Positions 7,241 through 27,913 of a stretch of 34,587 nt of DNA are shown here, in pieces. Position numbers and translations under genes: made by a program. This DNA comes from Filifactor alocis. GTDB lineage: Bacteria > Bacillota > Clostridia > Peptostreptococcales > Filifactoraceae. How positions within the stretch are numbered: position 1 is the stretch's first letter; each line of letters opens with the position of its first letter. The notes beneath the pieces were generated by a model. It was not told where the DNA came from, made no database searches, and saw only the letters and a list, made by a program, of their open reading frames with translations. The stretch spans positions 1 to 34,587 of the forward strand of contig JAUMWQ010000004.1 of the NCBI GenBank assembly GCA_030529565.1, in the 5' to 3' direction.

Positions 7241-9592
7241 CTAGGCCTCTTCTTTTCTCAACCTTCTCACCCAGGAGTTGGCACCGAAGCCAAGACCGAG
7301 CAGACACCAGAAGATCGGTGCTACCGAGACCACCGAGTCGTTGAAGAACCCTGCTCCCATATAGCCGATCACAGCCAGGAAAAGGCCGATCGCAAAGACC
7401 TCCGTCTCACTGTACTCCTTGCGGAAGGTATAGAGCAGAATACTGTCTATCACATAGAGGAGCAAGAGAATCAAGAGGGCCGCCAAAGCGACCAAACCTT
7501 GGTTGATCGCCAGCTGTAGATACCAGTTGTGAGGCTTGTCCACCGTCATATTCGGCGTACCGTAAGCATACCACTTCGCCAAGATATCTCCCTGCGGAAA
7601 GTGAAGCATGTAGGTATCAGGGCCATAACCTGCTATGATAGTATCCTTGAGCAGCGGAAGAGATCTCGACCAGATATAACCACGCGCCGAACCGATCTTC
7701 TCCTTGCCTTCAAAGCCGATGTAAGGAGCATCCTTCGGTGTAAATTCATAAAACTTGGGTGTATAGAAGCGAATTTCGCTCGGGTTGCTCAAATTTAGGA
7801 TCAACACGTCCTGATCCAGATATTTCAAGAGAAGGACGTCGACGATCTCTTCAGTTCTGTTTACCGTCCTCTTGATCTTTCCTTTTGAATAAGAGAATTC
7901 TGCAAACCTCGTATCCGTTGTCCTGTGTATCTTGTCTTCTCCCTTCTCGTAGGAGATCAACTCCATCTTCTCGTCGAAGAGGTTAATATTGCCCGTCGTA
8001 TTGTCCACAACCAACATACGATCGCCTTGGAGCTTGAGGAAGAGCTGCTTTCCGTCCACCGATATCGCACGGATGGGCACATGGTCATGATAGTCAAAGT
8101 TTTGCTGTACCCCTCCTACAATTCCCAAATCCTCCAACAAGGTCGGTACCCTCGCAAAGATAGCTCCCTGGGTCGCAATGCTGAATATCGCAATAGCAGC
8201 CAGCAGGATGGTAAAGGTCGTCAAACTGACCTTCCAATAGCGGAACAATTGTCTGAGCAGTACCAAGAGGAAGAAGACCACCACCAAAGCAAGTCCTACA
8301 ATTCCTGCTCTGGACGTACTTCCAAACAGTACAAAAAGAGCACACAGAGTCAAAAGCGCCGCTACGATACGTTGGAACATCTCCTTGGAAAATAGAGCGA
8401 TCACAAGGAAGAACGGAACCATCATAGCTCCAAAACTACCCATATAGTTGTAGTGGAACATCGTTCCATAAATTCTTTCCTTCTCAAATTGAAAGTTCAG
8501 TGTCGCATTTTGATACTCAGGAGGCAGGATGAAACTTCTCGCCCCGGGTGTCTGTAGGAGATCTTGCCCAAAAAACTGACTGATCCCCATGATCGTCGTT
8601 ATCAGCATCAGGAAGGACAGACTCCAAAAGATGATCTTCCTATTCTTTTCACTTCGATACGAGGTGATCGCATACATAAACAGTACCGCATAGGCAAGAA
8701 GGACGATCATCCCTTCCCTTCTGTCAGGAGCACCCCAGATCGCAACTCCGGGATAGAGAGCGATCACAGTCGAAATAAGACTGAAGGCCAAATAGACCAT
8801 AAGCAAACCAAAGGAAAATCTAAGCAGGATATCCTTCTTTGATCTGTCCTTTCGTCGAAACAGAGCCATAAAGACCAGAGACGCTCCAGCCAAACCGATA
8901 ACGGCAAGAGACTTATAATAGGAGAAAAAGTCATAGACAACCCCTGCCGAGGACCAGTAGGCATCGATTTCCGGCTCCAAAGGAAGAACCTTCAAAAAGA
9001 CGATCAAAGGAACGATCGACAGCACAAGTGCTATCGGAAGTAGACCGATCCAATTTGCACTGCCCGTAAGAAACTCCCTCACTGCATTGGACTGTTGTTT
9101 GGGCTGTTCTCCCTCACTCTTCTTCTGTTGCTCCTTATCCCTCTCTCGCTTCGACTTCTTCCTGCCTTGATCCTTCCCCTTAGGATCTTCGTCCGCCGAA
9201 GACGCAGGAACCGCTTCGGCCTCCCCTGACGGAGAAGATGTCTCATCCTTGGTCAAAGAAACCGTCCCCTTTTCTTCTGCCGAAGAATCCGCCTTGACCT
9301 CCCGAGACGGAGAATCTTCTTTGACCTCTTCTGTCAAAGTAACAGGAACAGCTCCGACCTCCTCTGAGGAAGGAAGGGGGCCGATTTCATCCTTTTCCAA
9401 AGAAACTGAGTCCTCAGGCTTATCCAAGATAACCTTCTCAGATCCATCCGGAACATCGACCGTTTCTTTTAAAGATTCTCCCTCCAAGGTTTCAACGTCC
9501 ACATTTTCCGTATGATCTCTTTCCGGAACAGGTTTGGGCTGTTCCGATCCCTTTTTGTTTTTATCCTTCGAAATTCGTTTTGATTTTCTCAT
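7241..9592 (-). CDS. O-antigen ligase/Wzy-type polytopic membrane protein
   Basis: A 783 aa protein. Residues 1-170 are a hydrophilic tail rich in Glu, Ser, Lys and Pro, with no membrane segment. From about 175 there are a dozen or so membrane helices of the Wzy_C/O-antigen ligase type, with STSRAG (425-430), GYGPDTY (655-661) and KPHNWYLQ (686-693), the family's conserved periplasmic-loop residues. An extracytoplasmic insertion of about 165 residues (475-640), predicted mostly beta, splits the helices. Known relatives join or polymerise undecaprenol-linked glycans; here a surface or wall glycopolymer is the likely substrate, which is inference. GGGAG sits 6 nt before the ATG. The start is 11 bp after the TolC-like gene, so they form one operon ending at 7145-7180. 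Confidence 0.82.
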   Translation of the reverse strand: MRKSKRISKDKNKKGSEQPKPVPERDHTENVDVETLEGESLKETVDVPDGSEKVILDKPEDSVSLEKDEIGPLPSSEEVGAVPVTLTEEVKEDSPSREVKADSSAEEKGTVSLTKDETSSPSGEAEAVPASSADEDPKGKDQGRKKSKRERDKEQQKKSEGEQPKQQSNAVREFLTGSANWIGLLPIALVLSIVPLIVFLKVLPLEPEIDAYWSSAGVVYDFFSYYKSLAVIGLAGASLVFMALFRRKDRSKKDILLRFSFGLLMVYLAFSLISTVIALYPGVAIWGAPDRREGMIVLLAYAVLFMYAITSYRSEKNRKIIFWSLSFLMLITTIMGISQFFGQDLLQTPGARSFILPPEYQNATLNFQFEKERIYGTMFHYNYMGSFGAMMVPFFLVIALFSKEMFQRIVAALLTLCALFVLFGSTSRAGIVGLALVVVFFLLVLLRQLFRYWKVSLTTFTILLAAIAIFSIATQGAIFARVPTLLEDLGIVGGVQQNFDYHDHVPIRAISVDGKQLFLKLQGDRMLVVDNTTGNINLFDEKMELISYEKGEDKIHRTTDTRFAEFSYSKGKIKRTVNRTEEIVDVLLLKYLDQDVLILNLSNPSEIRFYTPKFYEFTPKDAPYIGFEGKEKIGSARGYIWSRSLPLLKDTIIAGYGPDTYMLHFPQGDILAKWYAYGTPNMTVDKPHNWYLQLAINQGLVALAALLILLLLYVIDSILLYTFRKEYSETEVFAIGLFLAVIGYMGAGFFNDSVVSVAPIFWCLLGLGFGANSWVRRLRKEEA

Positions 9593-9603
9593 AACTCTCC
9601 CTT

Positions 9604-10713
9604 CTACATCGAAGATCCGGTCAGATAGATCTGGTTGAAGTGGATCTTCGCCGTTTCATATGCCTTTATCAATTCTCGGATCTGAACATCCATCTGCTCC
9701 AACTCCATCTTCTTCTTCTCCAGACTAAAGGAAGAGACCTTGCCTGCAACGAGCTTGATCTTCTCATTCTCAAGCTCTTCAACCTTTATCTCTCTCTGCT
9801 GTTTCAATAATTCTATCCTCTCCTGCAAAAGTTTGAGGTTTTGGTACTCCCTTTCCACTCCCGAACGAACGTCTTCCTTCAACTTGAGGATCTCCGTCTC
9901 ATCAATGTAGATATCCGCTTGACGGATCGCTCTGCTTCCTTCATACAGATTTCTGTCCAATATCAATTTTTGCAAACTGACTCCGTGTTCCTTAGCGACC
10001 ACCTGCATATTTGCAGAAGAAGCTTGCATTCCCTTCAGTTTTACTTCTTCGTCCTTCAGATTGAGAGGTTTGAAGCTATAAGGGATCTCAACGATGGAAT
10101 ATTCGTTCAAATCCTTCAAATTCAAGTATTTATTTAATTCTAACAAATGTTTGTTCAAAGTCAAATACTTTTGCGTTTTATTTTTCTGCATCTCCTGCAA
10201 AGAGTTGTTTAGGGAATTGTAGTCATATTTGCTGATCAAGCCCCTCTCCTTTTTGACATCGGCAATTGCGATCTCCTTCTTAAGCATCCCGATCTCCTTA
10301 TCATGGAGTTTGATCTCCGCATAGACAGTATCGATCTCATTGAAGAGGTTACGAATGGCAAACTCGAGCATCACCTTGGTATAGCGGACCTGCTTGTCGT
10401 AGAAATCCTTCTCCAACGTCGATTTTTCCAAGCCGAAGGCTACCTTGTCCATCATCTCGCCATACTCAGGATTTTGGTTCATCATCTCTACCAAAATTCT
10501 GCCCTGAACATCCAATTCCTCATCCGAAGTCTCCTGCTTCGAGATCTGTTTTTCGGTTCTCTTTATCTCCAAGCTGTTTTTTACTGCAAGTTCGACCGCC
10601 TTTTCATAGGTAAGAAGCTTAGCTTCCTTCCTATCTGTGTGATCTGCATAAGAAACTGTGGTACAAACCATTGCCAGACTTAAAACTACAGGGATTATTT
10701 TTTTTATCATCAT
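9604..10713 (-). CDS. TolC-like (outer membrane efflux family) secreted coiled-coil protein
   Basis: A 369 aa protein with a signal peptide (MMIKKIIPVVLSLAMVCTTVSYA) followed by a TolC-like opening, LTYEKAVELAVKNSLEIKRTEKQI. The rest is almost all charged amphipathic helix, with long heptad stretches at about 95-190 and 260-350. Real TolC proteins form outer-membrane channels in diderms; this organism looks monoderm, so a periplasmic-like or wall-associated scaffold is more likely. Only the general TolC family resemblance is visible; I see no beta-barrel strands of the TolC type, and no HlyD adaptor gene lies nearby. AAGGAGG precedes the ATG by 5 nt. First confirmed gene of the operon with the ligase-type gene; the small ORF upstream may be its first cistron. 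Confidence 0.75.
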   Translation of the reverse strand: MMIKKIIPVVLSLAMVCTTVSYADHTDRKEAKLLTYEKAVELAVKNSLEIKRTEKQISKQETSDEELDVQGRILVEMMNQNPEYGEMMDKVAFGLEKSTLEKDFYDKQVRYTKVMLEFAIRNLFNEIDTVYAEIKLHDKEIGMLKKEIAIADVKKERGLISKYDYNSLNNSLQEMQKNKTQKYLTLNKHLLELNKYLNLKDLNEYSIVEIPYSFKPLNLKDEEVKLKGMQASSANMQVVAKEHGVSLQKLILDRNLYEGSRAIRQADIYIDETEILKLKEDVRSGVEREYQNLKLLQERIELLKQQREIKVEELENEKIKLVAGKVSSFSLEKKKMELEQMDVQIRELIKAYETAKIHFNQIYLTGSSM

Positions 10714-11313: not shown

Positions 11314-13371
11314 TTAGTGCATTACGATAACTTGCTTTGTCGCAGGAACCCAAACATAACCGGTACCTCTTTCCAAACCAAAGGCATCTCCCAGAGAGCT
11401 TAGCGGTAAGAACAGGCTTCCTTTTACGTTTTGGCTTGCTGTATTCATCTTGATGTCCACGCCGTTTTTGTTCAAGGTTTTTCCATTGGATTTTACCTTA
11501 ACTACGGTATCTCCCTTTGTAAAGGTCGCTGTCTTGCTTGCGTTGTCCCAAGCCACCTGTACTCCGATGGTCTCTGCTACGACCCTCATCGGCAGCATGG
11601 TATAGCCATCCTTGGTGTATACGGCGGAAGTCATTTGCTTCTCTATATCTCCGACCATATACTTATTGGAACCTAAGGTAAAGGTTGTCTTTGTTTTTAC
11701 CTCAGGAACAGGTTGAGGTTGAGGCTGCGGTACAGGTGTCGGTACAACAGGAGCTGCACCTATCGTAAAGAAGTCTTCTTTTGCGATCGGTTCCATTGCG
11801 TATTCTTTTCCGTCTGCCAAAATCACGCTGTCAAGTTCTTTGGAAGGTTTGACCGCCTTAAAGAAAACCACTTTATAGTTTCCATTCGGGATCGATCTTT
11901 GTGTTGTTACCTTCAGACCCGAAATTGTGATCCTACCCATATCGGAACCGCTGGATTCTCTATTCAGAGTAAATTGAACAACATCTTCGTCCTTACCGAG
12001 TTTTGCATCTTTTACCGTTATTTTTTCTGCATCGACTTTTGCATCTTTAGCGAAAAGTACCTTGTCAAATTTTCCTCCGGCAACTTTAATTCCATAGATC
12101 TCAGAAGATTCCAAAGCCTTCGTCTTCTTCTCTTCGATCACGATATTTCCTACCTCTTCGTTGACAATTCCTCCGGAGATATTCTTTTTGTCTACGCTAA
12201 GGCTTACTCTAGGAGAAAGCTTAACTAGCTCTGTTTTGAGGTCTGCATTTCTAAGCTTCGCTTCCAAAACGACTACATCCGCATCTTCATCCGGTGTTAC
12301 CTTAAGATCAAGTTTCATCGTACCACCTTGATCGTTAGTACGGAAGGAGAAGTCGTCTACGGGATTACCCTTCTTATCTTGGATCTTAGCCTTGTCCGCT
12401 ACCTCTTTTGCATCCTTTGCTTCTCCCTTGACAGTTCCGCCTACCACTTTGAAGTCTACATAAGAAGTCTGAGGAAGTCTTCCACCCGTAGATTTTAAAA
12501 CTACAGTAACAGGAATATCCTTACTTCCTGCAAATTCCATCTTAACACCGTTTTGTACTTCAAGCACAGGCTTGTACTCTTCTATCTTTCCAACTACCAA
12601 CTTTGCACTGTTGGAAGCAGCCTTGACATCAACTTCGATCTCATCTTGAGACGCGCTGTCATCAACATCTACGAGCGGCTTTACAATTACAGCCTTATCA
12701 GAAGTAGCTCTTAAAACAAGTTTTCTTGCCTCTACACTTACAACTGTCGCTTCGCTTACACGCTCCGCCTTCTTCATCTCAGTCTCATCCCACTCCACTC
12801 CGCTCGGAAGTGTCAATGTAACTTCTTCACCGGATTTCAAAGAAAGCATAAAATGAGCAAGTTCCGTATCTCTTTGATAACCCACACTGGGAACCTTGTT
12901 GAGTATCTTAGCAAAAGAAGTATCTTCTTCCGTCATAATTGCAAATACCTTGGTTTCTTTTCCAAGACCTACCGCATTTGCATCAACAGTAAGTTTCTTC
13001 TCTCCAAGTCCGTCAACGTCTACGATACCGCTTATATTAATTTTGTCTCCACCTTTAACAAGCGCGATGTCTTCTGCACTTAAAGTAATTACGATACTCT
13101 TTTCTGTAACTACCAACTGAGGTTTCAAGTCCTTTACTCCCAAAGTTGCTTTTACGTCAGCTGAAACAAACATTCCTTCTTCCAAAGATACCGTCATGGC
13201 TCCGGCTTGAAGAATATCCGCGCTGTTTGCATTGAGTACCACTTGGAACGGCATATTTGTATCTTGTTTCGCCGTTCTTGAGCTCACATTGATCTCAGCT
13301 CCGAACACCGTTGTGGGGATCATAGCCAAAACCAAAAGAGCTGCTGCCGCTTTTCCTGCATACCTTTTCAT
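11314..13371 (-). CDS. secreted surface protein with C-terminal copper amine oxidase N-like domain
   Basis: A 685 aa exported protein. Signal peptide MKRYAGKAAAALLVLAMIPTTVFGA, a long beta-rich Val/Lys/Asp-rich middle, a Pro-Gln linker (about 548-558, PTPVPQPQPQPVPE), then a PF07833-type domain: TTFTLGSNKYMV, GYTMLPMRVVAETIGVQVAW and SLFLPLSSLGDAFGL. The domain name comes from the family; no amine oxidase activity is implied. Its order of domains and several segments (GNIVI, RITISGL, TTQRSIPNG) match the 697 aa paralogue at 15679-17772. A surface-array or wall-binding role is inferred. It has its own promoter (13477-13506) and terminator (11224-11272), and GGGAG 7 nt before the ATG. Confidence 0.85.
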   Translation of the reverse strand: MKRYAGKAAAALLVLAMIPTTVFGAEINVSSRTAKQDTNMPFQVVLNANSADILQAGAMTVSLEEGMFVSADVKATLGVKDLKPQLVVTEKSIVITLSAEDIALVKGGDKINISGIVDVDGLGEKKLTVDANAVGLGKETKVFAIMTEEDTSFAKILNKVPSVGYQRDTELAHFMLSLKSGEEVTLTLPSGVEWDETEMKKAERVSEATVVSVEARKLVLRATSDKAVIVKPLVDVDDSASQDEIEVDVKAASNSAKLVVGKIEEYKPVLEVQNGVKMEFAGSKDIPVTVVLKSTGGRLPQTSYVDFKVVGGTVKGEAKDAKEVADKAKIQDKKGNPVDDFSFRTNDQGGTMKLDLKVTPDEDADVVVLEAKLRNADLKTELVKLSPRVSLSVDKKNISGGIVNEEVGNIVIEEKKTKALESSEIYGIKVAGGKFDKVLFAKDAKVDAEKITVKDAKLGKDEDVVQFTLNRESSGSDMGRITISGLKVTTQRSIPNGNYKVVFFKAVKPSKELDSVILADGKEYAMEPIAKEDFFTIGAAPVVPTPVPQPQPQPVPEVKTKTTFTLGSNKYMVGDIEKQMTSAVYTKDGYTMLPMRVVAETIGVQVAWDNASKTATFTKGDTVVKVKSNGKTLNKNGVDIKMNTASQNVKGSLFLPLSSLGDAFGLERGTGYVWVPATKQVIVMH

Positions 13372-13513: not shown

Positions 13514-14341
13514 TTACTCTAAAATCTTAAATGGTATCATCAAACTTCTCTTTGTTCCATCTTCCTTTTGATAGAAGAACTTGACAATACACTCGGATTT
13601 TTTTGACTCACGAGAGACACTCTCAAAGTAAAGACCTCCCGTCAAGGAATCGTCCTTGTTATTCATAAAATTATACAGTGGCAGACCCACCCCTTCAACT
13701 GTTGCGACGTATTCCTTTCCGTTGAGAGAAAGTATGGTCTCCGTAGGAAGCAGGCTCACCCCATCGCTGTACTTACTCACGTTTTCAAGTTGAAGATCCA
13801 AGTACAAATCTCTTCCGCCATTAACAAAACCCGCTTCCCTGATATTGATACGAATATTCTCATCCATATTGTATTGGGGCAGTAAAGCGTATTTTGGGGT
13901 CAACCCTGCATCAAGAGCCTGTTTCTGTAAAGAATTCTTTTGCTGAGCAATATCCTTCTTCAGCTCACTGTTCTCCTTCTCCAGTTCAGCCACCCTCTTC
14001 TCCAAGGCCCTGATCTTATCATTTGAGGTGATATAAGGACAAGAGAGTTTCTCCACCTCCGGTCTCGGCGGAGCAGTGATGCTGATCACCTGTCCCTTTT
14101 CGTCATATTGAACTTTCATATTAAGGGCTTCGGCGACAAAACGAATAGGAACATAGGCCCTCTTATCATACTCCAAAGTCTGATACTCTTTACCCATCGG
14201 CCTGATATCTCCATTAAAAGAGTAGACATAAGGCTTCGACACCACATCATACACAGGCTTTGTCTTTCTTGTCTCTGCTGTAACCATGGGTGTAAAAACA
14301 AAGGAAAGAAGCAAACCTACCGATATTATTTTTTGCTTCAT
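13514..14341 (-). CDS. secreted protein with copper amine oxidase N-like domain and coiled coil
   Basis: A 275 aa exported protein. A signal peptide (MKQKIISVGLLLSFVFTPMVTA) is followed by a short PF07833-type domain: PYVYSFNGDIRPMGKEYQTL and RAYVPIRFVAEALNMKVQYD. A heptad-repeat coiled coil follows (about residues 105-140, IRALEKRVAELEKENSELKK), then a beta-rich C-terminal domain. The frame opens at 14371, but the ATG at 14341 has AGGAGGT 5 nt upstream and begins the signal peptide, so I used it. The domain is at the N-terminus here but at the C-terminus in the two large paralogues. Role unknown; probably envelope-associated, with the coiled coil for self-association or partner binding. Confidence 0.82.
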   Translation of the reverse strand: MKQKIISVGLLLSFVFTPMVTAETRKTKPVYDVVSKPYVYSFNGDIRPMGKEYQTLEYDKRAYVPIRFVAEALNMKVQYDEKGQVISITAPPRPEVEKLSCPYITSNDKIRALEKRVAELEKENSELKKDIAQQKNSLQKQALDAGLTPKYALLPQYNMDENIRINIREAGFVNGGRDLYLDLQLENVSKYSDGVSLLPTETILSLNGKEYVATVEGVGLPLYNFMNNKDDSLTGGLYFESVSRESKKSECIVKFFYQKEDGTKRSLMIPFKILE

Positions 14342-15379
14342 AACGCACCTCCTGCAAATCAAAACTCCCAAACAACTCTCCCAAGGTGCGGCTTTGGAAA
14401 ATACACCGAAGAAAACTCCATCCTAAGCCTTTCTATTCAAGGTCGTTCAAAAGAATCCTACAGACAGGAACCCTTTCTCTTCCTTATAGGAACTACGTTT
14501 ATTAAAAAGCTCCCAACAAAAAAGTAAAGACCTCCTATGCCTGCTTTTATTATACTACATTTTATCAACTATTCTCCTCTTTGACTGTAACTGTAATCAA
14601 ATCGTAAGTATTCCGCCACATTTTTTAAATTCCCCGCTGAACTTGCTTTTTTACTTATTGATACCTTCTTGTCAAATATCAAGCCTCTCTTGATTATTAT
14701 CTCATCCTTGCAAAAATAAAATAAATACATCTAAAAACGATCTACTTCACGAAATTATTTCTTTGCATCCAAAACTAATAGAATGGTAGAAAACCTGTTC
14801 TGTGTATATGCTAATCTAAAAATGGTCCACAAATAACAAAAAATCTCTTTGAAAACCGGTCCAATCAATCACAAAATATACATTTCAGAATTTAAATTTT
14901 TTCGCAAAAAACCGTATATGCCAATTTAAAATCCTCCACAAACAGCAAAAAATCTTTTTAAAAATCAGTCCGATGAATCACAAAAAACTTTTAAAATTTT
15001 TAGTAAACTTAGCATCTCCCCTTCCTCTTCATCTTATAGATACAAGATCGAATTTTCAACACTGAAATGAGATTTTTTCTCTTTTTAATGTATAATATAT
15101 GTTTTTTTCAATTTTTTATCTCCTAAAATGAGCGTTTTTTTGTTAAAGGTGTTAGACAAATCCTGTATATCAGTTGATTCCATCTTATAATAAGATAGAG
15201 TGTTTATGTCATTTATCCCCATTAAATGATAGGTTCTCCACTAAATAAAGTTGTTCTTATAATATCAACTTCACATTTGACGCCAGTGCTACGCCTCACT
15301 CCCTCCCTCGAACGGTATAAATCAGACCGGTGATATTGATCTCATCTATAGATATTAAAGTTCTCTTGCCTCGCATATA
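14342..15379. other. AT-rich intergenic region, no gene recognised
   Basis: About 1.0 kb, clearly richer in A and T than the coding DNA around it. It holds a direct repeat (14804-14985), several TATAAT-like sequences (for example near 14550 on the minus strand and 15090 on the plus strand) and a small hairpin near 15209-15230. The composition is compatible with acquired or decayed DNA. Confidence 0.5.
14804..14985 (+). repeat. pair of direct repeats about 73 bp long
   Basis: Copy one is 14804-14876, copy two 14914-14985; the period is 110 bp. Both run GTATATGC.AAT.TAAAA, TCCACAAA.A.CAAAAAATCT, then GTCC.AT.AATCACAAAA. Only two copies are seen and the spacer is AT-rich. Confidence 0.75.
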
Positions 15380-15678: not shown

Positions 15679-17772
15679 TTACTTAACGTCTTCAGCCTTA
15701 ACTTCCTCAGCTGTTACTTCTTCAGCTGCAGCAGGCATAGCCTTAGGATAGATAGTTACTTCTTTAGAAGTCTTGTTGTAGAGGTAGTCATAATCTCTTG
15801 TCAATCCGAAAGCATCTCCTACAGAAGATACAGGGATGAACATTCTGTCAGCTTTAACAGTAGCCTTTGTTACCATCGGGTAAGAGTTACCGTTTTTGTA
15901 AAGCATTTTAGCATCTTGAGTTACAGATACTACGATATCTCCATCGATGAAGGTAGCTGTCAAGTTCTCTTGGTTCCATACAACATCTACTCCAAGAGCA
16001 TCAGCGATAGCTCTTACAGGAAGCATTGTGTAGTTGTCTTGTGTGAATACAGGAGTGTCAAGTTTCATAGCTTGTCCATCTACTGTATAGTCAGCAGAAC
16101 CAAGTGTGAATACTGTAGTTTTCTTAACTTTGCTCATTTTGTCAACAACTTTGATGAACTCAGCATCGTTGATTGTATCCAATAGAGCATGTTTGTTGCT
16201 TGTCAAAGCATATCTGCTTCCACGCTTCATTCCAGGATCGTTTACAAACTCACCTACATGAACGAATGTCAATTTGTGTGTTCCGAAGGGGAAAGAACGT
16301 GTAGATACAACTTCTACATCTTTCAATGTGATCTTTCCGGGTGCATCTGTCTTAGATCTTGTTGCGATTGTGAAGTACAATGTTTGGTCAGCTTTATCCA
16401 AAGTATAAGACTTAACTGTCAATCCTTCAGCTTCGATCTTACCTTTAACATCGAATTTAACTTCGTCAGCAAATTTCAATCCTGTCAAAGTAACTCCGAA
16501 CACTGTTCCGTTCTTCATTGCTCCACCTTGTGTTTCAGTGATCACGATGTCAGCTACTGCAACCTTAGAGTCTCCACCAAGAACTTCTTTAGTTTCAACT
16601 TTCATTTCAGCAACAGGCTTAACTTTAAGGATTACTAGAGAAAGGTCATCCATTCCTCTACCTTTAGCTTTAAGAACTACGTCTCCGCTTGCATCCCAGT
16701 CAGGAGCAACTTCCAATTTAACTGTGAAGTTGTTAGCTCCACCTTGAGGAGAGTTCCATGTAAAGTTGTCGCCGAAGTCGCCAACAGCATCTCCTTCAAA
16801 GTTTGTTGCGCTAAGAACTTTAACATCAGCGCCTTCAACTTCGAAATCCATTACTTTAGGAAGGTAATCTCTGTCAGAAGTCTTAACTTTAACGTCAACT
16901 TTGTAGGTGTCTCCGTTAGCAAGTTTCTCTTGAAGAGCTTTTACCAATTCCATAGTAACGCCGTAGTCAACATACTCAGCTACTTTGATTGTATCAGTTG
17001 CAGAACCTTTTTTAACGTCGAATTCTACATCGCCTTTTCCTGCATCTCTTGTTACAGTAAGAACTGCTTGAACAACAGCTTTTGTGCTTGTCAAGTTGAA
17101 TGTCATTGTTCCTTTGTCATGATCAAACACAGGAGTTGTTCCGTTTGTTACTCTTGTTCCTGCTTCAAATTTGAAGTCTGTGGAAGGAAGTTTAACTACA
17201 ACAGTTTCTCCAACTTTACCTGTTACTTCGAAAGGAGCAACATCTTGGTCTTTACCTCTTGCGATTTTCTTAACTGTTCCTGTTACTTTTGTGAATCCGC
17301 CATCTTTGTCATTCAATTTAGCAAATACTCTTTCGGGATATGTCGGAAGACCAACACCGCTCAAATCATAGATGATTTTGTATTCGCCGTCAACTGCGTT
17401 TTTAAATCTAACTGTTCCGTTGATTTTCAAAACTTGTCCAGCTGCGTTTCCAGGTGCCAACTCAGCTTTAGTCAAGTTTGCAACTTCGTAGATAGAGTTT
17501 GTAGCAGGTGTAATTGCTGTTGCAGTTGCTACACCGATGTTCAATCTCTCGAACACTACATCATCTCCTACCAATTGAACCGCTACAGAACCATCTTTCA
17601 AACCGATGATGTCGTTTTCTTCGATTTTGAAAGTTGCAGAGAATGTAGCTGTTCCTTCGCTGTCGTCAACAGAAACAACACTGCTGTACTTAGCTTCAAC
17701 AGCGAACGCGCTAGCAGGTACCAATGTAAGCATCATCAGCACTGCTACTAATAAAGAAAGTCTCTTCTTCAT
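15679..17772 (-). CDS. abundant surface protein with C-terminal copper amine oxidase N-like domain
   Basis: A 697 aa exported protein: signal peptide MKKRLSLLVAVLMMLTLVPASAFA, a beta-rich, lysine- and aspartate-rich extracellular body, then a PF07833-type domain near residues 550-675 (TVFTLGSADYTV, NYTMLPVRAIADALGVDVVW, RMFIPVSSVGDAFGL). The tail is Glu/Ala-rich (EEVTAEEVKAEDVK). It is a paralogue of the 685 aa protein. Codons are mostly GTT, GCT, ACT, GAA, AAA and AAC, unlike nearby genes with mixed G/C third bases, and the promoter is near consensus; together these point to very high expression, as for an S-layer or major wall protein. No SLH or CWB2 repeat is seen, so anchoring may rest on the PF07833 domain (inference). 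AAGGAGG lies 9 nt before the ATG. Confidence 0.87.
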   Translation of the reverse strand: MKKRLSLLVAVLMMLTLVPASAFAVEAKYSSVVSVDDSEGTATFSATFKIEENDIIGLKDGSVAVQLVGDDVVFERLNIGVATATAITPATNSIYEVANLTKAELAPGNAAGQVLKINGTVRFKNAVDGEYKIIYDLSGVGLPTYPERVFAKLNDKDGGFTKVTGTVKKIARGKDQDVAPFEVTGKVGETVVVKLPSTDFKFEAGTRVTNGTTPVFDHDKGTMTFNLTSTKAVVQAVLTVTRDAGKGDVEFDVKKGSATDTIKVAEYVDYGVTMELVKALQEKLANGDTYKVDVKVKTSDRDYLPKVMDFEVEGADVKVLSATNFEGDAVGDFGDNFTWNSPQGGANNFTVKLEVAPDWDASGDVVLKAKGRGMDDLSLVILKVKPVAEMKVETKEVLGGDSKVAVADIVITETQGGAMKNGTVFGVTLTGLKFADEVKFDVKGKIEAEGLTVKSYTLDKADQTLYFTIATRSKTDAPGKITLKDVEVVSTRSFPFGTHKLTFVHVGEFVNDPGMKRGSRYALTSNKHALLDTINDAEFIKVVDKMSKVKKTTVFTLGSADYTVDGQAMKLDTPVFTQDNYTMLPVRAIADALGVDVVWNQENLTATFIDGDIVVSVTQDAKMLYKNGNSYPMVTKATVKADRMFIPVSSVGDAFGLTRDYDYLYNKTSKEVTIYPKAMPAAAEEVTAEEVKAEDVK

Positions 17773-18554: not shown

Positions 18555-18590
18555 AAAAAGACGATATTTCGCTTTGAAAGATATCGTCTT
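18555..18590 (-). terminator. terminator of the PhnM-like gene
   Basis: AAGACGATAT pairs with ATATCGTCTT, extended by TTTC/GAAA, and is followed on the minus strand by TTTTTC. It lies about 50 bp past the stop codon. Confidence 0.8.
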
Positions 18591-18640
18591 CGTTAAGTGC
18601 TTGGTCCGAACTCTCGGTATGAATTCCGTTTCCGCGCATA

Positions 18641-19768
18641 TTATGAATGATAAGAGACCCGGCTTACGACCTTGCCCTTGCATATCGTCATCATATTCAT
18701 AGGAAAACCGTCATCGTATTCCACGACGATAAGGTTTGCAAAACTGCCTTTTTCAATACTACCTCTTCCTTCAAGTCCGAGGGCTTTCGCCGGATTATAG
18801 CTCACCATTCGGACCGTTTCGACAAGTCCGATCTCGTGCGACATCATAAATACGGATTCCAACAAATCTTCCGCGTTATGCGAAGCAGTGAGAATATTAA
18901 AACTGCGCTCGGCAACTCCCGAGGAATAGTTTGAGATTTTATCGAGATCCCAGAGATTACAGGTGTCTATAGTCGCATACTTATGATTCTTTTGAACATA
19001 GTCCAAGGCCTCCGGCTCGCTCGGATCCAAAATGATAGAGATTTTTGAGTTGTATTTTCTCTCCATGCTCTCGGACAGTCTATACTTCGTGGTTGCAACG
19101 GGTATTCCCGCTGATGCTGCATATTTGAAACGATAAGAGACATCTTCCTGATTTATTTCAAAGCGACGTTCTTTGATCCTCTCCAAAATGGCCCAGGCCA
19201 ACCTATCCTTGATATCAAACTTCTCCTTGAGATATTCCAAGAAGTACTCGTCCTTAAAATACTCCTGTTCTCCTCTTACACTACCCATATAAGTGATGAG
19301 ATCAACCAATTCATTGGAGATCAACTTTTTCATAAACTCAATGTTGCGAATATCCCCGATCCTGAATTTCAAATGGATCTTATGCTCGACGAGATGTTTG
19401 TTCTCTTTACAAACACGCAACTTCTCAAGCCTTTCGAGCCCCTGTTCCTCCGTATAGTCTTTGAGGAATCCGTCGATATCGATGCTGTGATAGACCGTCG
19501 TGATCCCGGACAACGCATTCATCCGATCCGCTCGATTGAATTGTTTAAGGGCAGGATGTTGACTAAAGTAACGCTCGTCTTCTCTAAGATCAAAGTTACG
19601 ACTTTGGATGTTGATCATCCCAGGCATAACGATTCTTCCCGTGCAGTCGATAAATTCCCCCTCGGGTTTCTCCCCGATCCGAACTTCTTTGATATGCTCT
19701 CCCTCTATCTCGATAGTCCCCTCGGCTATACTGTCTTTCAAAACAATATAGTTGCTATACAGTCTCAT
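18641..19768 (-). CDS. PhnM-like amidohydrolase homologue lacking metal ligands
   Basis: A 375 aa protein with the amidohydrolase fold outline: an N-terminal beta sandwich (YSNYIVLKDSIAEGTIEIEG), VMPGMI (48-52), SGITTVYHS (88-96), HKIHLKF (129-135), and a C-terminal NPAKALGLEGRGSIEKGSFANLIVVE. These fit PhnM (ribose methylphosphonate triphosphate diphosphatase). The catalytic positions do not: the family's HxD after PGMI is Gln55-x-Arg57; the HDD motif aligns with Thr227-Lys228-Tyr229; the conserved Asp after Ser is His297. A metal-dependent hydrolase is therefore unlikely; a binding or regulatory pseudoenzyme, or a new chemistry, is possible. No other phn gene is in the window. GAGGTG lies 5 nt before the ATG; the gene is alone with its own promoter and terminator. 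Confidence 0.75.
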   Translation of the reverse strand: MRLYSNYIVLKDSIAEGTIEIEGEHIKEVRIGEKPEGEFIDCTGRIVMPGMINIQSRNFDLREDERYFSQHPALKQFNRADRMNALSGITTVYHSIDIDGFLKDYTEEQGLERLEKLRVCKENKHLVEHKIHLKFRIGDIRNIEFMKKLISNELVDLITYMGSVRGEQEYFKDEYFLEYLKEKFDIKDRLAWAILERIKERRFEINQEDVSYRFKYAASAGIPVATTKYRLSESMERKYNSKISIILDPSEPEALDYVQKNHKYATIDTCNLWDLDKISNYSSGVAERSFNILTASHNAEDLLESVFMMSHEIGLVETVRMVSYNPAKALGLEGRGSIEKGSFANLIVVEYDDGFPMNMMTICKGKVVSRVSYHS

Positions 19769-19862
19769 TCTCTCACCTCGCCCTTAATCGTTTACCCTAC
19801 CCATCGGCGATAAAATACAAACCGCTTTCCACGCTTTGCATCTCTTCATAATAACTCTTTTT

Positions 19863-24823: not shown

Positions 24824-25207
24824 CTACTTTTCGTTATAGGAGTTCAGTGCGTTATCCAAGGCGATGGCACGGCTTTTTTCAAAACCTCTCTTATCGATGG
24901 ATACAGCGATGATCTTCTTCCTGATATCATCCAAACTCATTCCCTCGATCTCCGGATAGTCCTTGAATCGACTGAAGGCTCCCATTCCCTTTGTGATCTT
25001 TGCTTTTTTGACGATCTTTTTCTTGCTGACCGCAAGAGCAACGGAACAACCTCTTGCAAAGGTAGGTTTGTGCTTGCCTGCAATGACTCTTCCCTGTTCC
25101 CTGAGCTCTGCTCCCACCTTCTTCATATGTTGTACCTGCAAATAGATCGCAAGACCCTCCAATACAATAACGGCGATCAGAAGGACCGTTCCTATCTTCA
25201 TTTCCAT
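24824..25207 (-). CDS. GutM-like protein (glucitol operon activator family)
   Basis: A 127 aa protein with one N-terminal membrane helix (IGTVLLIAVIVLEGLAIYL), then LREQGRVIAGKHKPTFARG, VALAVSKKKIVKKAKITKGM and FSRFKDYPEIEGMSLDDI. This order matches GutM/SrlM, which in enterics helps switch on the glucitol (sorbitol) PTS operon. No PTS or sugar gene is in the window; the gene follows recR with a 115 bp gap (10 bp for the open frame), so it may belong to the dnaX-ybaB-recR operon and do something else. I chose the ATG at 25207 (MEMKIG), which has GAGAGG 6 nt upstream, over the open frame starting at 25312, whose first 35 residues look non-coding. Confidence 0.75.
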   Translation of the reverse strand: MEMKIGTVLLIAVIVLEGLAIYLQVQHMKKVGAELREQGRVIAGKHKPTFARGCSVALAVSKKKIVKKAKITKGMGAFSRFKDYPEIEGMSLDDIRKKIIAVSIDKRGFEKSRAIALDNALNSYNEK

Positions 25208-25322
25208 TTCTTTCCTCTCCATTCCTATGTAACTGTTATCTTCTATTCTCCCAAGATCCGTTCTTCCTCCTTGAGGAAGCGGCGGGGTTGAACCGTTCTT
25301 CGATCCAAACACCCTCTTCTTC

Positions 25323-25925
25323 CTACAAGATCTCCCTGCGACCTTCCAAGGCTTTGCCTATCGTAACATCGTCCGCAAACTCCAAGTTCGCCCCCACCGG
25401 AAGCCCGTGAGCGATCCTGGTAACCTTTATGCCGAAGGGCTTGATCAGTCTTGCGATATACATCGCCGTCGCCTCTCCGTCGATCGTGGTATTGGTCGCA
25501 ATAATGACTTCTTTTACCTTGTCGTCATGCAACCTTGAGACCAACTCCCTGATCCTTATCATATCGGGAGTAATGGAGGACGACGGTGATATCGTTCCGT
25601 GCAGAACGTGATACTTGCCGTGGTACTCCCTTGTTCTCTCCATCGCAGCAACGTCTCTGGGATCCTCGACTACACAGATCAGGCTCTCATCCCTGTTGGG
25701 CGAGTTACAGATACTGCACGGATCCTTATCCGAGATATTGTAACAGATCTGACAGTAGGCGATGTTCTCCTTGGCATTGCGTATCGCATCCGCCAGACCC
25801 GTAACTTCCTCCTGTGGCATATTGATGATGTAGAATGCCAACCTCTGTGCCGTCTTATAGCCCACTCCCGGCAATTTGCCCAAACGCTCGATCAACCGAT
25901 CGATATGACCGGAATAGTGTTGCAT
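25323..25925 (-). CDS. recR: recombination protein RecR
   Basis: A 200 aa protein of normal length that works with RecO to load RecA on single-stranded gaps. It shows the helix-hairpin-helix [17 protein letters not shown] (15-31), a four-cysteine zinc finger (Cys58, 61, 70, 73), and a Toprim domain starting at [15 protein letters not shown]. The ATG shares one base with the ybaB stop (TAATG), so translation is coupled. Third gene of the dnaX operon. Confidence 0.97.
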
Positions 25926-26269
25926 TAGAACAGCCCCGGTATATTCATACCGCCCGTGATCTGCGACATCTTGCTGCCTGCCATCTCATCGGCAAGACGA
26001 AGTGCCTCGTTGACTGCCGACAACACGAGATCCTGTAACATTTCGATATCCTCGGGATCCACAACCTCGGGATCGATCGTGATCGATAGGATCTCCTTCT
26101 TTCCGTTGGCTACAACCTTTACGGTTCCTCCTCCTACGGATGCTTCGACCTGCTTTTCTTCCAGTTCAGCCTGCATCTTCTCCATGTCGCGCTGCATCTT
26201 TTGTACCTGCTTGAGCATATTGTTCATATTTCCCGGCATACCCGGGAATCCACCTCTTTGTTTTGCCAT
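25925..26269 (-). CDS. ybaB: YbaB/EbfC family nucleoid-associated protein
   Basis: A 114 aa DNA-binding protein. It starts with a Gly/Met-rich stretch ([20 protein letters not shown]), then a long helix and the conserved [23 protein letters not shown]. The C-terminal part reads [21 protein letters not shown]. It lies between dnaX and recR as in most bacteria, 20 bp after dnaX, with AGGAGGA 7 nt before its start. Confidence 0.95.
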
Positions 26270-26289
26270 TGTACTTCCTCCTAAAACTG

Positions 26290-27882
26290 TTATTTTATCT
26301 CGATCGGAACTCCGGGAAACCTCTCCCTGAGCTCCTGTAATACCGCATCTTCTTCCACTTCTTCCCGGGAGAGATTTGAAACCTGACTCGAAAACAGGAA
26401 ATAAACTTCGACTTCTTCTCCCAGAGCCTGAGAAAACAAGCTGCCGATCAACTCCCTGTTCTCCCGGGTATCGATTTTATTCTTATGAAAATCAAAAGGT
26501 TCATCGTAAGCGATGTAGAGCTTATCTCCGATCCGCCGTGCGACTCTCCCCTCCTGCAACAGGGCCTTGGTGCTTGCAAAACGTTGCTGTTTGAGAAGGT
26601 CATAGACCTGCAACATTGCTTGGTTCGCCTGTTCGATCCTCTCCCTCTCTTCGTCGGAACAGTTCTGTGCAAGTTCCTTCAAATCCGGTTTGGCATCGAT
26701 CCGTGAGTTCTTAACCTCCCTTTCTTTTCCGAATATCTCGGGAGCAGGAGACTCCTTCAACTTCTTGATCTCTGCCTGTAGCCGGAAGAGTTCTTCCCTG
26801 AGTATCGCGATCTCTTTTTTGAGGTCCAAAATATCGGAGACTTCTCCCCCTTGCGGTTTCTCTCCCTGAGAAAGGTAGCGAATAACAGCAAGTTCCAAGG
26901 TCTCTCGAGGTGCTGACGACATCCTCATCTTCGCCTGTGTTTCTCCAAAAAACTCCATCCGCGAAATCAGACTCTCGATCTCGTACCCGTCCTTAAAATC
27001 GTCCTTCGCTTCTATCCCGTAGTGCTCCATCAAAGACTCCCTCAAATACAGGAGAAGACCCCTGACAAAGAGCTTGATGTCCGCACCTTCCGCATGAACC
27101 GCTTCAATTAATTCCAAAATCCTTGGGATATCCGAGGCATCCATCGCTCTCAAGAAATCCCTCTTCTCCTCCTCGATCGAACCTCCGACCAGGCTGAGGA
27201 CTTCCTTCAAGCCCACCTTCTCCAAACTCATCATCTTGTCGAGGAGACTCAGGGCATCGCGCATCCCTCCGTCGCTTTCCCTGGCGATAAACTCGAGTGC
27301 CGCTTCCTCAAAAGGCTTTCCTTCTCTTTCGAGAACGAGGCGGAGGTGCTTTGCTATCACCTCATCATCCAGTCGTTTGAAATCAAAACGCTGACAACGC
27401 GAAAGCACCGTTGCCGGTATCTTGTGAGGCTCGGTCGTCGCCAGGATGAAGATAACGTGATCCGGCGGTTCCTCCAAGGTCTTGAGCAGAGCGTTGAAGG
27501 CGCCTTGAGACAACATATGAACCTCGTCGATGATGTAGACCTTATACCTGCCGACCGTCGGCATAAAGACGACGTTATCCCTGAGATCTCGGATGTTGTC
27601 CACTGAGTTGTTGGAAGCTGCATCCAGTTCGATCTCGTCGAGGTCCCCGTCTACACAGGCCTTACAGTGATAGCAGGGCCTATCTTCAGACAGACAATTG
27701 ACCGCCTTCGAAAAAACCTTGGCCGTCGATGTTTTGCCCGTACCCCTGGAACCGCAGAACAAATAGGCGTGGCTGACACTTCCTTCCCGGATCTGGCTCT
27801 TGAGCACGGATACGATATGTTCCTGGCCCACAATATCTTCAAACCTTTTAGGTCTGTAGCTTCTATACAGTGCCTGATGCAT
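26290..27882 (-). CDS. dnaX: DNA polymerase III subunit gamma/tau
   Basis: A 530 aa clamp-loader subunit: AAA+ core with Walker A GSRGTGKT (44-51), a zinc module (Cys63, 70, 73, 76), Walker B DEVH (119-122) and the SRC arginine finger. Past residue 370 comes a charged coiled stretch ([13 protein letters not shown]), then a tau-like C-terminal domain. I chose the ATG at 27882 ([14 protein letters not shown]), which has AAGGAGG 5 nt upstream; the earlier GTG at 27900 lacks one. First gene of the operon with ybaB and recR. Confidence 0.97.
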
Positions 27883-27913
27883 ATGGACCTCCTTCCTCAC
27901 GACTTATCCTTTG

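Follow-up and report, generated by a model that had tools for sequence, protein, structure and literature searches.

A single-copy PhnM homolog of the Filifactoraceae has lost its presumed metal ligands and is probably a pseudoenzyme

The gene at positions 18641..19768 (-) of the window (the whole stretch of 34,587 nucleotides of Filifactor alocis DNA analysed here) encodes, from an ATG start codon, a 375-amino-acid homolog of PhnM, the alpha-D-ribose 1-methylphosphonate 5-triphosphate diphosphatase (TIGR02318, NF011990), without the presumed metal ligands of that enzyme. This raises the question of whether the protein is still an enzyme or is maintained for some other role. Pfam models Amidohydro_1/3 matched only the C-terminus of the protein, and the NCBIfam PhnM models matched it nearly full length, with E values down to 6.7e-45. 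All curated PhnM cut-offs were missed by the protein, the scores being 153.4 bits for NF011990 (cut-off 233) and 146.9 bits for TIGR02318 (cut-off 390.6). An hhalign comparison with canonical PhnM extended over 371 columns (probability 100, E 1.3e-56), indicating full-length homology. The fold motifs listed in an earlier note on this DNA (PGMI, H-x-x-H-L with H129/H132, and NPAKALGL..GSIEKGS) were all found in the protein, whose C-terminal NPA..G.I..G.AD motif is common to PhnM.

Expression signals were also considered, the earlier note having credited the gene with an intact ribosome site, promoter and terminator. A Shine-Dalgarno-like GAGGTGA (19773..19779, -) lies 4 nt 5′ of the ATG, and a hairpin followed by a U-tract is found 3′ of the gene (18555..18591, -; fold of −13.7 kcal/mol for 70 nt), which is a likely intrinsic terminator and is absent from the list of a consensus scan. 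The proposed promoter, by contrast, could not be substantiated: the sole upstream sigma-70-like match on the gene strand is about 380 nt distant, and shuffled sequence contained matches of this kind at about the same frequency.

The six presumed ligands correspond, in the numbering of the window protein, to H55, D57, E136, H163, H227 and D296, each at the C-terminal end of a barrel strand; their role is assumed from what is known of NagA and other amidohydrolases. The combination HDEHHD was present in 42 out of 42 PhnM proteins from outside the Filifactoraceae, made up of a first set of 23, which takes in Thermus, Haloarcula, Sinorhizobium, Citrobacter and Mycolicibacterium, and 19 from a phylum-wide sample. 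The window protein shows QRRSTS and retains none of the six, with the same losses in four alignment settings; chance is excluded as the source of this result, because all six positions that are invariant in the 42 other PhnMs have changed. As the earlier note had read, Gln-Ser-Arg replaces His-x-Asp at codons 55-57 at the end of strand beta1 (Gln55-x-Arg57; 19598..19606, -; alignments and secondary structure), and Thr227-Lys228-Tyr229 replaces His-Asp-Asp at codons 227-229 after beta5 (19082..19090, -). Its claim that every metal-ligand motif had been replaced holds for the six positions, although its list was incomplete: Arg instead of Glu at codon 136 of H-x-R-x-E, at the end of beta3 (19361..19363, -), and Ser instead of the His of MDHTPGQGQ at codon 163, after beta4 (19280..19282, -), had been overlooked. 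In addition, the late Asp, said there to be replaced by His, aligns with Ser296 after beta8 (18881..18883, -), the neighbouring His297 sitting at a PhnM Tyr. Further PhnM invariants are gone or mostly gone in Filifactoraceae (R66, R134, P165 and residues of PGQGQ, HDD, EFP, GAPN, GGSH and DYxP), whereas the structural ones are kept (D41, P49-G50, G88, T90-T91, H132, P326-A327, G336 and G365).

A structure model was obtained with AlphaFold on six sequences (pLDDT 80.7, pTM 0.81); the other four models ranged from 73 to 47, so the model deserves moderate trust. It predicts the fold of the amidohydrolase superfamily, a TIM-like barrel capped by a beta-sandwich, with all six ligand positions at or just past strand ends. 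Foldseek matches of the model were NagA, dihydroorotases and CRMPs, with an E value of 3e-16 to NagA. The NagA proteins of E. coli and V. cholerae, the best structural matches (TM 0.67-0.69), are active metal-dependent deacetylases with 14-17% identity to the window protein. A model of the Acetoanaerobium homolog was poor (pLDDT 61.5) and was left out of the conclusions, and a sequence search of the PDB found no PhnM structure.

The loss of ligands is not a peculiarity of the window copy. A single homolog with a broken site was found in each of the 11 Filifactoraceae genomes searched (5 genera), among them those of Proteocatella sphenisci, Acetoanaerobium pronyense and [Eubacterium] yurii; Proteocatella and Acetoanaerobium are placed in the Filifactoraceae by NCBI taxonomy. 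A scan of genome contigs with an alignment returned five full-length homologs and four short weak matches, and the same scan with a single protein query gave no match. Each of the 11 members keeps at most one of the six ligands exactly: Asp296 is retained in four of them (genera g4 and g5), and five still have one of His55/Asp57, which indicates that erasure was stepwise. The 11 sequences form one clade (support 100/100) on a long stem of 1.44 changes per site, whose sister group, tentatively (94/84), is the PhnM proteins of genus g40, which belongs to the same order. Beyond the Filifactoraceae, no ligandless PhnM was present among the matches read in samples of 297 genomes of the order, 391 of the class and 399 of the phylum, searched with E limits of 1e-15 to 1e-25. 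In two other genomes of the phylum, G670 (locus L087) and G820 (L088), two PhnM homologs lie about 6 kb apart, and the one of each pair that was read has its ligands intact.

The long stem and the variable active face could be taken as signs of a functionless relic that is decaying slowly. This is very unlikely, given that the gene is present in 11 of 11 genomes, that the Filifactoraceae copies have no internal stops and a conserved start and ribosome site, and that between the two closest species (G006 and G002) pN is 0.048 and pS 0.72, a pN/pS of ~0.07 that is approximate because pS is near saturation. Purifying selection on the gene is thus strong in relatives of the window copy, and the statement of the earlier note that the gene is maintained is borne out. 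For the same reason, together with the lack of the ligand set in all 11 homologs, the possibility of a lone decayed copy was rejected. The gene combines ligand loss with selection, as known amidohydrolase pseudoenzymes do.

The pathway in which PhnM acts was then searched for in the same genomes. PhnJ and PhnI were found in none of the 11, of which 7 are at least 90% complete and that of the window ~80%, and the E. coli control was positive for both proteins; their absence throughout indicates that the C-P lyase pathway is gone from the Filifactoraceae. On the other hand, the canonical PhnM genes examined in the order are located within phn operons, that of genus g40 being part of a complete one. 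Compared with PhnM, the window protein is without the six presumed ligands, has lost most of the remaining invariant residues of the active site and belongs to genomes without C-P lyase. An ordinary active PhnM that had been misaligned in the first reading would account for the NCBIfam matches; it is hardly credible, as even the best score falls short of its curated cut-off (153 bits against 233), the four alignment settings agree, and PhnJ and PhnI are missing.

The distribution of conservation within the clade bears on what the protein may do at present. At 26 active-face positions invariant in PhnM, mean conservation was 0.122 in the Filifactoraceae clade vs 0.975 in canonical PhnM, in comparison with a whole-protein mean of 0.335 in the clade; a mean this low was reached by only 4 out of 20,000 sets of positions drawn at random. 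The structural invariants reached 0.934 in the clade. Conservation was higher in the clade than in canonical PhnM in the N-terminal strands of the beta-sandwich (0.473 vs 0.338) and in the helix of codons 188-219 (0.474 vs 0.169; 19112..19207, -), a candidate contact surface with R202, D/E209, Y212 and K215. It has to be noted that these statistics are limited by the sample of 11 divergent sequences. Such a shift would be expected if the pocket had gone out of use and another surface were used. The possibility that a metal site had been rebuilt from other residues found no support, the former active-site face being variable within the family.

Three residues of the barrel interior require separate mention. 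N53, H94 and H132 are invariant in 11 of 11 members and, in the model, lie on the neighbouring strands beta1-beta3, so that they could be a remnant pocket or even a new, deeper metal site of a metalloenzyme of another kind. The latter is unlikely: H94 (~19/23) and H132 (~22/23) are mostly shared with canonical PhnMs, in which position 53 is Asp/Glu, so these residues look second-shell or structural, and the active face lacks any invariant Asp/Glu that would replace a ligand. A metal-independent activity or the sensing of a small molecule in the remodelled pocket, for example nucleotide or phosphate binding, is doubtful but less so. In every member of the clade, position 136 is occupied by Arg, Lys or Gln and position 228 by a charged residue, which would suit such a function, although the pocket rim is variable overall. 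Binding of a nucleotide or phosphate was suggested by the ribose triphosphate substrate of PhnM and by the location of the gene near guaBA: guaA was found 2-13 kb away in 7 of the 7 assemblies with both genes on one contig. This linkage may, however, only mark an inherited position, as the gaps range from hundreds of bases to more than 10 kb, often with other genes in between. As a partner operon, guaBA was rejected for this reason, the neighbourhood being constant and an operon not evident.

Other neighbours differ by genus. In the window, the gene is on its own, flanked by genes for a beta-propeller protein and for a protein with a Cu-amine-oxidase domain, and tyrS is 12.5 kb away. In genera g2 and g3 (5 of 5) a type IV pilus/competence-like operon is directly upstream, and in 3 of these 5 contigs murB-PHP-rapZ-cofD-nudix-whiA-...-tyrS follow downstream. 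In genus g4, rnc and an Elp3-like radical SAM gene precede it, with guaA farther on, and in genus g5 it is preceded by larB/larC or fatty-acid genes and adjoined by ABC transporter genes, IMPDH and guaA lying farther away. The pilus/competence-like operon was rejected as a general partner, since its ATPase gene is elsewhere in other genera. With a pilin operon, rnc plus the Elp3-like gene, LarBC or none of these beside it, the context names no partner: operon partners vary and the locus is largely inherited.

Several features of these regions were recorded in passing. The small genes of the pilus/competence-like operon (L023 of G002, L026 of G009, and also G001, G005 and G006) mostly have no Pfam match. 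The window also encodes a 369-amino-acid protein matching the outer-membrane efflux family (TolC-type OEP; 9604-10713, -; E 2.8e-10) in a genome of a Gram-positive family, adjoined by a 783-amino-acid O-antigen-ligase-like protein (7241-9592); three nearby proteins with a copper amine oxidase N-terminal domain (11314-13371, 13514-14371 and 15679-17772, -); and a dnaX-ybaB-recR block with a short GutM-like gene after it (24824-27900, -).

The alternative left open by the earlier note, a pseudoenzyme or a new activity, is supported in its general form, with the pseudoenzyme the likelier of the two in view of the ligand loss shared by 11 of 11 members, the purifying selection and the variable former active face. 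We give a probability of roughly 0.6 to a pseudoenzyme derived from PhnM, left behind after loss of the phn operon and acting through protein contacts. In an ancestor of the Filifactoraceae, a canonical PhnM would have remained when the other genes of the C-P lyase (phn) operon disappeared, an order of events that we infer; later, the metal ligands and substrate-binding residues would have been replaced, with the barrel and its capping beta-sandwich retained. At present the protein would perform no chemistry at the old site and would make protein-protein contacts via the N-terminal beta-sandwich and helix 188-219, most likely serving a housekeeping complex as a structural or regulatory subunit. 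In evolutionary terms, it is reasonably probable that the proteins form a lineage-defining pseudoenzyme family descended from one PhnM, with a core single-copy role and either a new contact surface (N-terminal sandwich, helix 188-219) or a new pocket chemistry.

Two known systems serve as precedents. The Pseudomonas pseudo-DHO is inactive, yet it is required for the activity and assembly of ATCase (PMC7053772); like the window protein, it is a maintained protein of amidohydrolase fold without the zinc ligands, although it derives from dihydroorotase instead of PhnM and its partner is the ATCase catalytic chain, which depends on it. The CRMP/dihydropyrimidinase-like proteins, also among the Foldseek matches, have likewise kept the fold and lost most metal ligands; CRMP-4 keeps two out of six, and CRMPs lack dihydropyrimidinase activity (PMC4051505). 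Unlike the window protein, CRMPs occur in animals, descend from dihydropyrimidinase and take part in neuronal development. By analogy with these proteins, a non-catalytic scaffold or regulatory subunit would be the best-supported role.

Dihydroorotase and dihydropyrimidinase have both given rise to known pseudoenzymes of amidohydrolase fold; in the open-access literature, we found no description of one derived from PhnM and no paper on these Filifactoraceae proteins. If this reading is true, the family would offer a clear example of an enzyme that has outlived its own pathway, the pathway genes being absent and the gene kept as a single copy in 11 of 11 genomes. It would also document a stepwise erasure of the active face, with intermediates in some genera (Asp296 or one of His55/Asp57). 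Finally, if these genes were annotated as PhnM or as amidohydrolase, the anaerobes that carry them would wrongly be predicted to use phosphonates.
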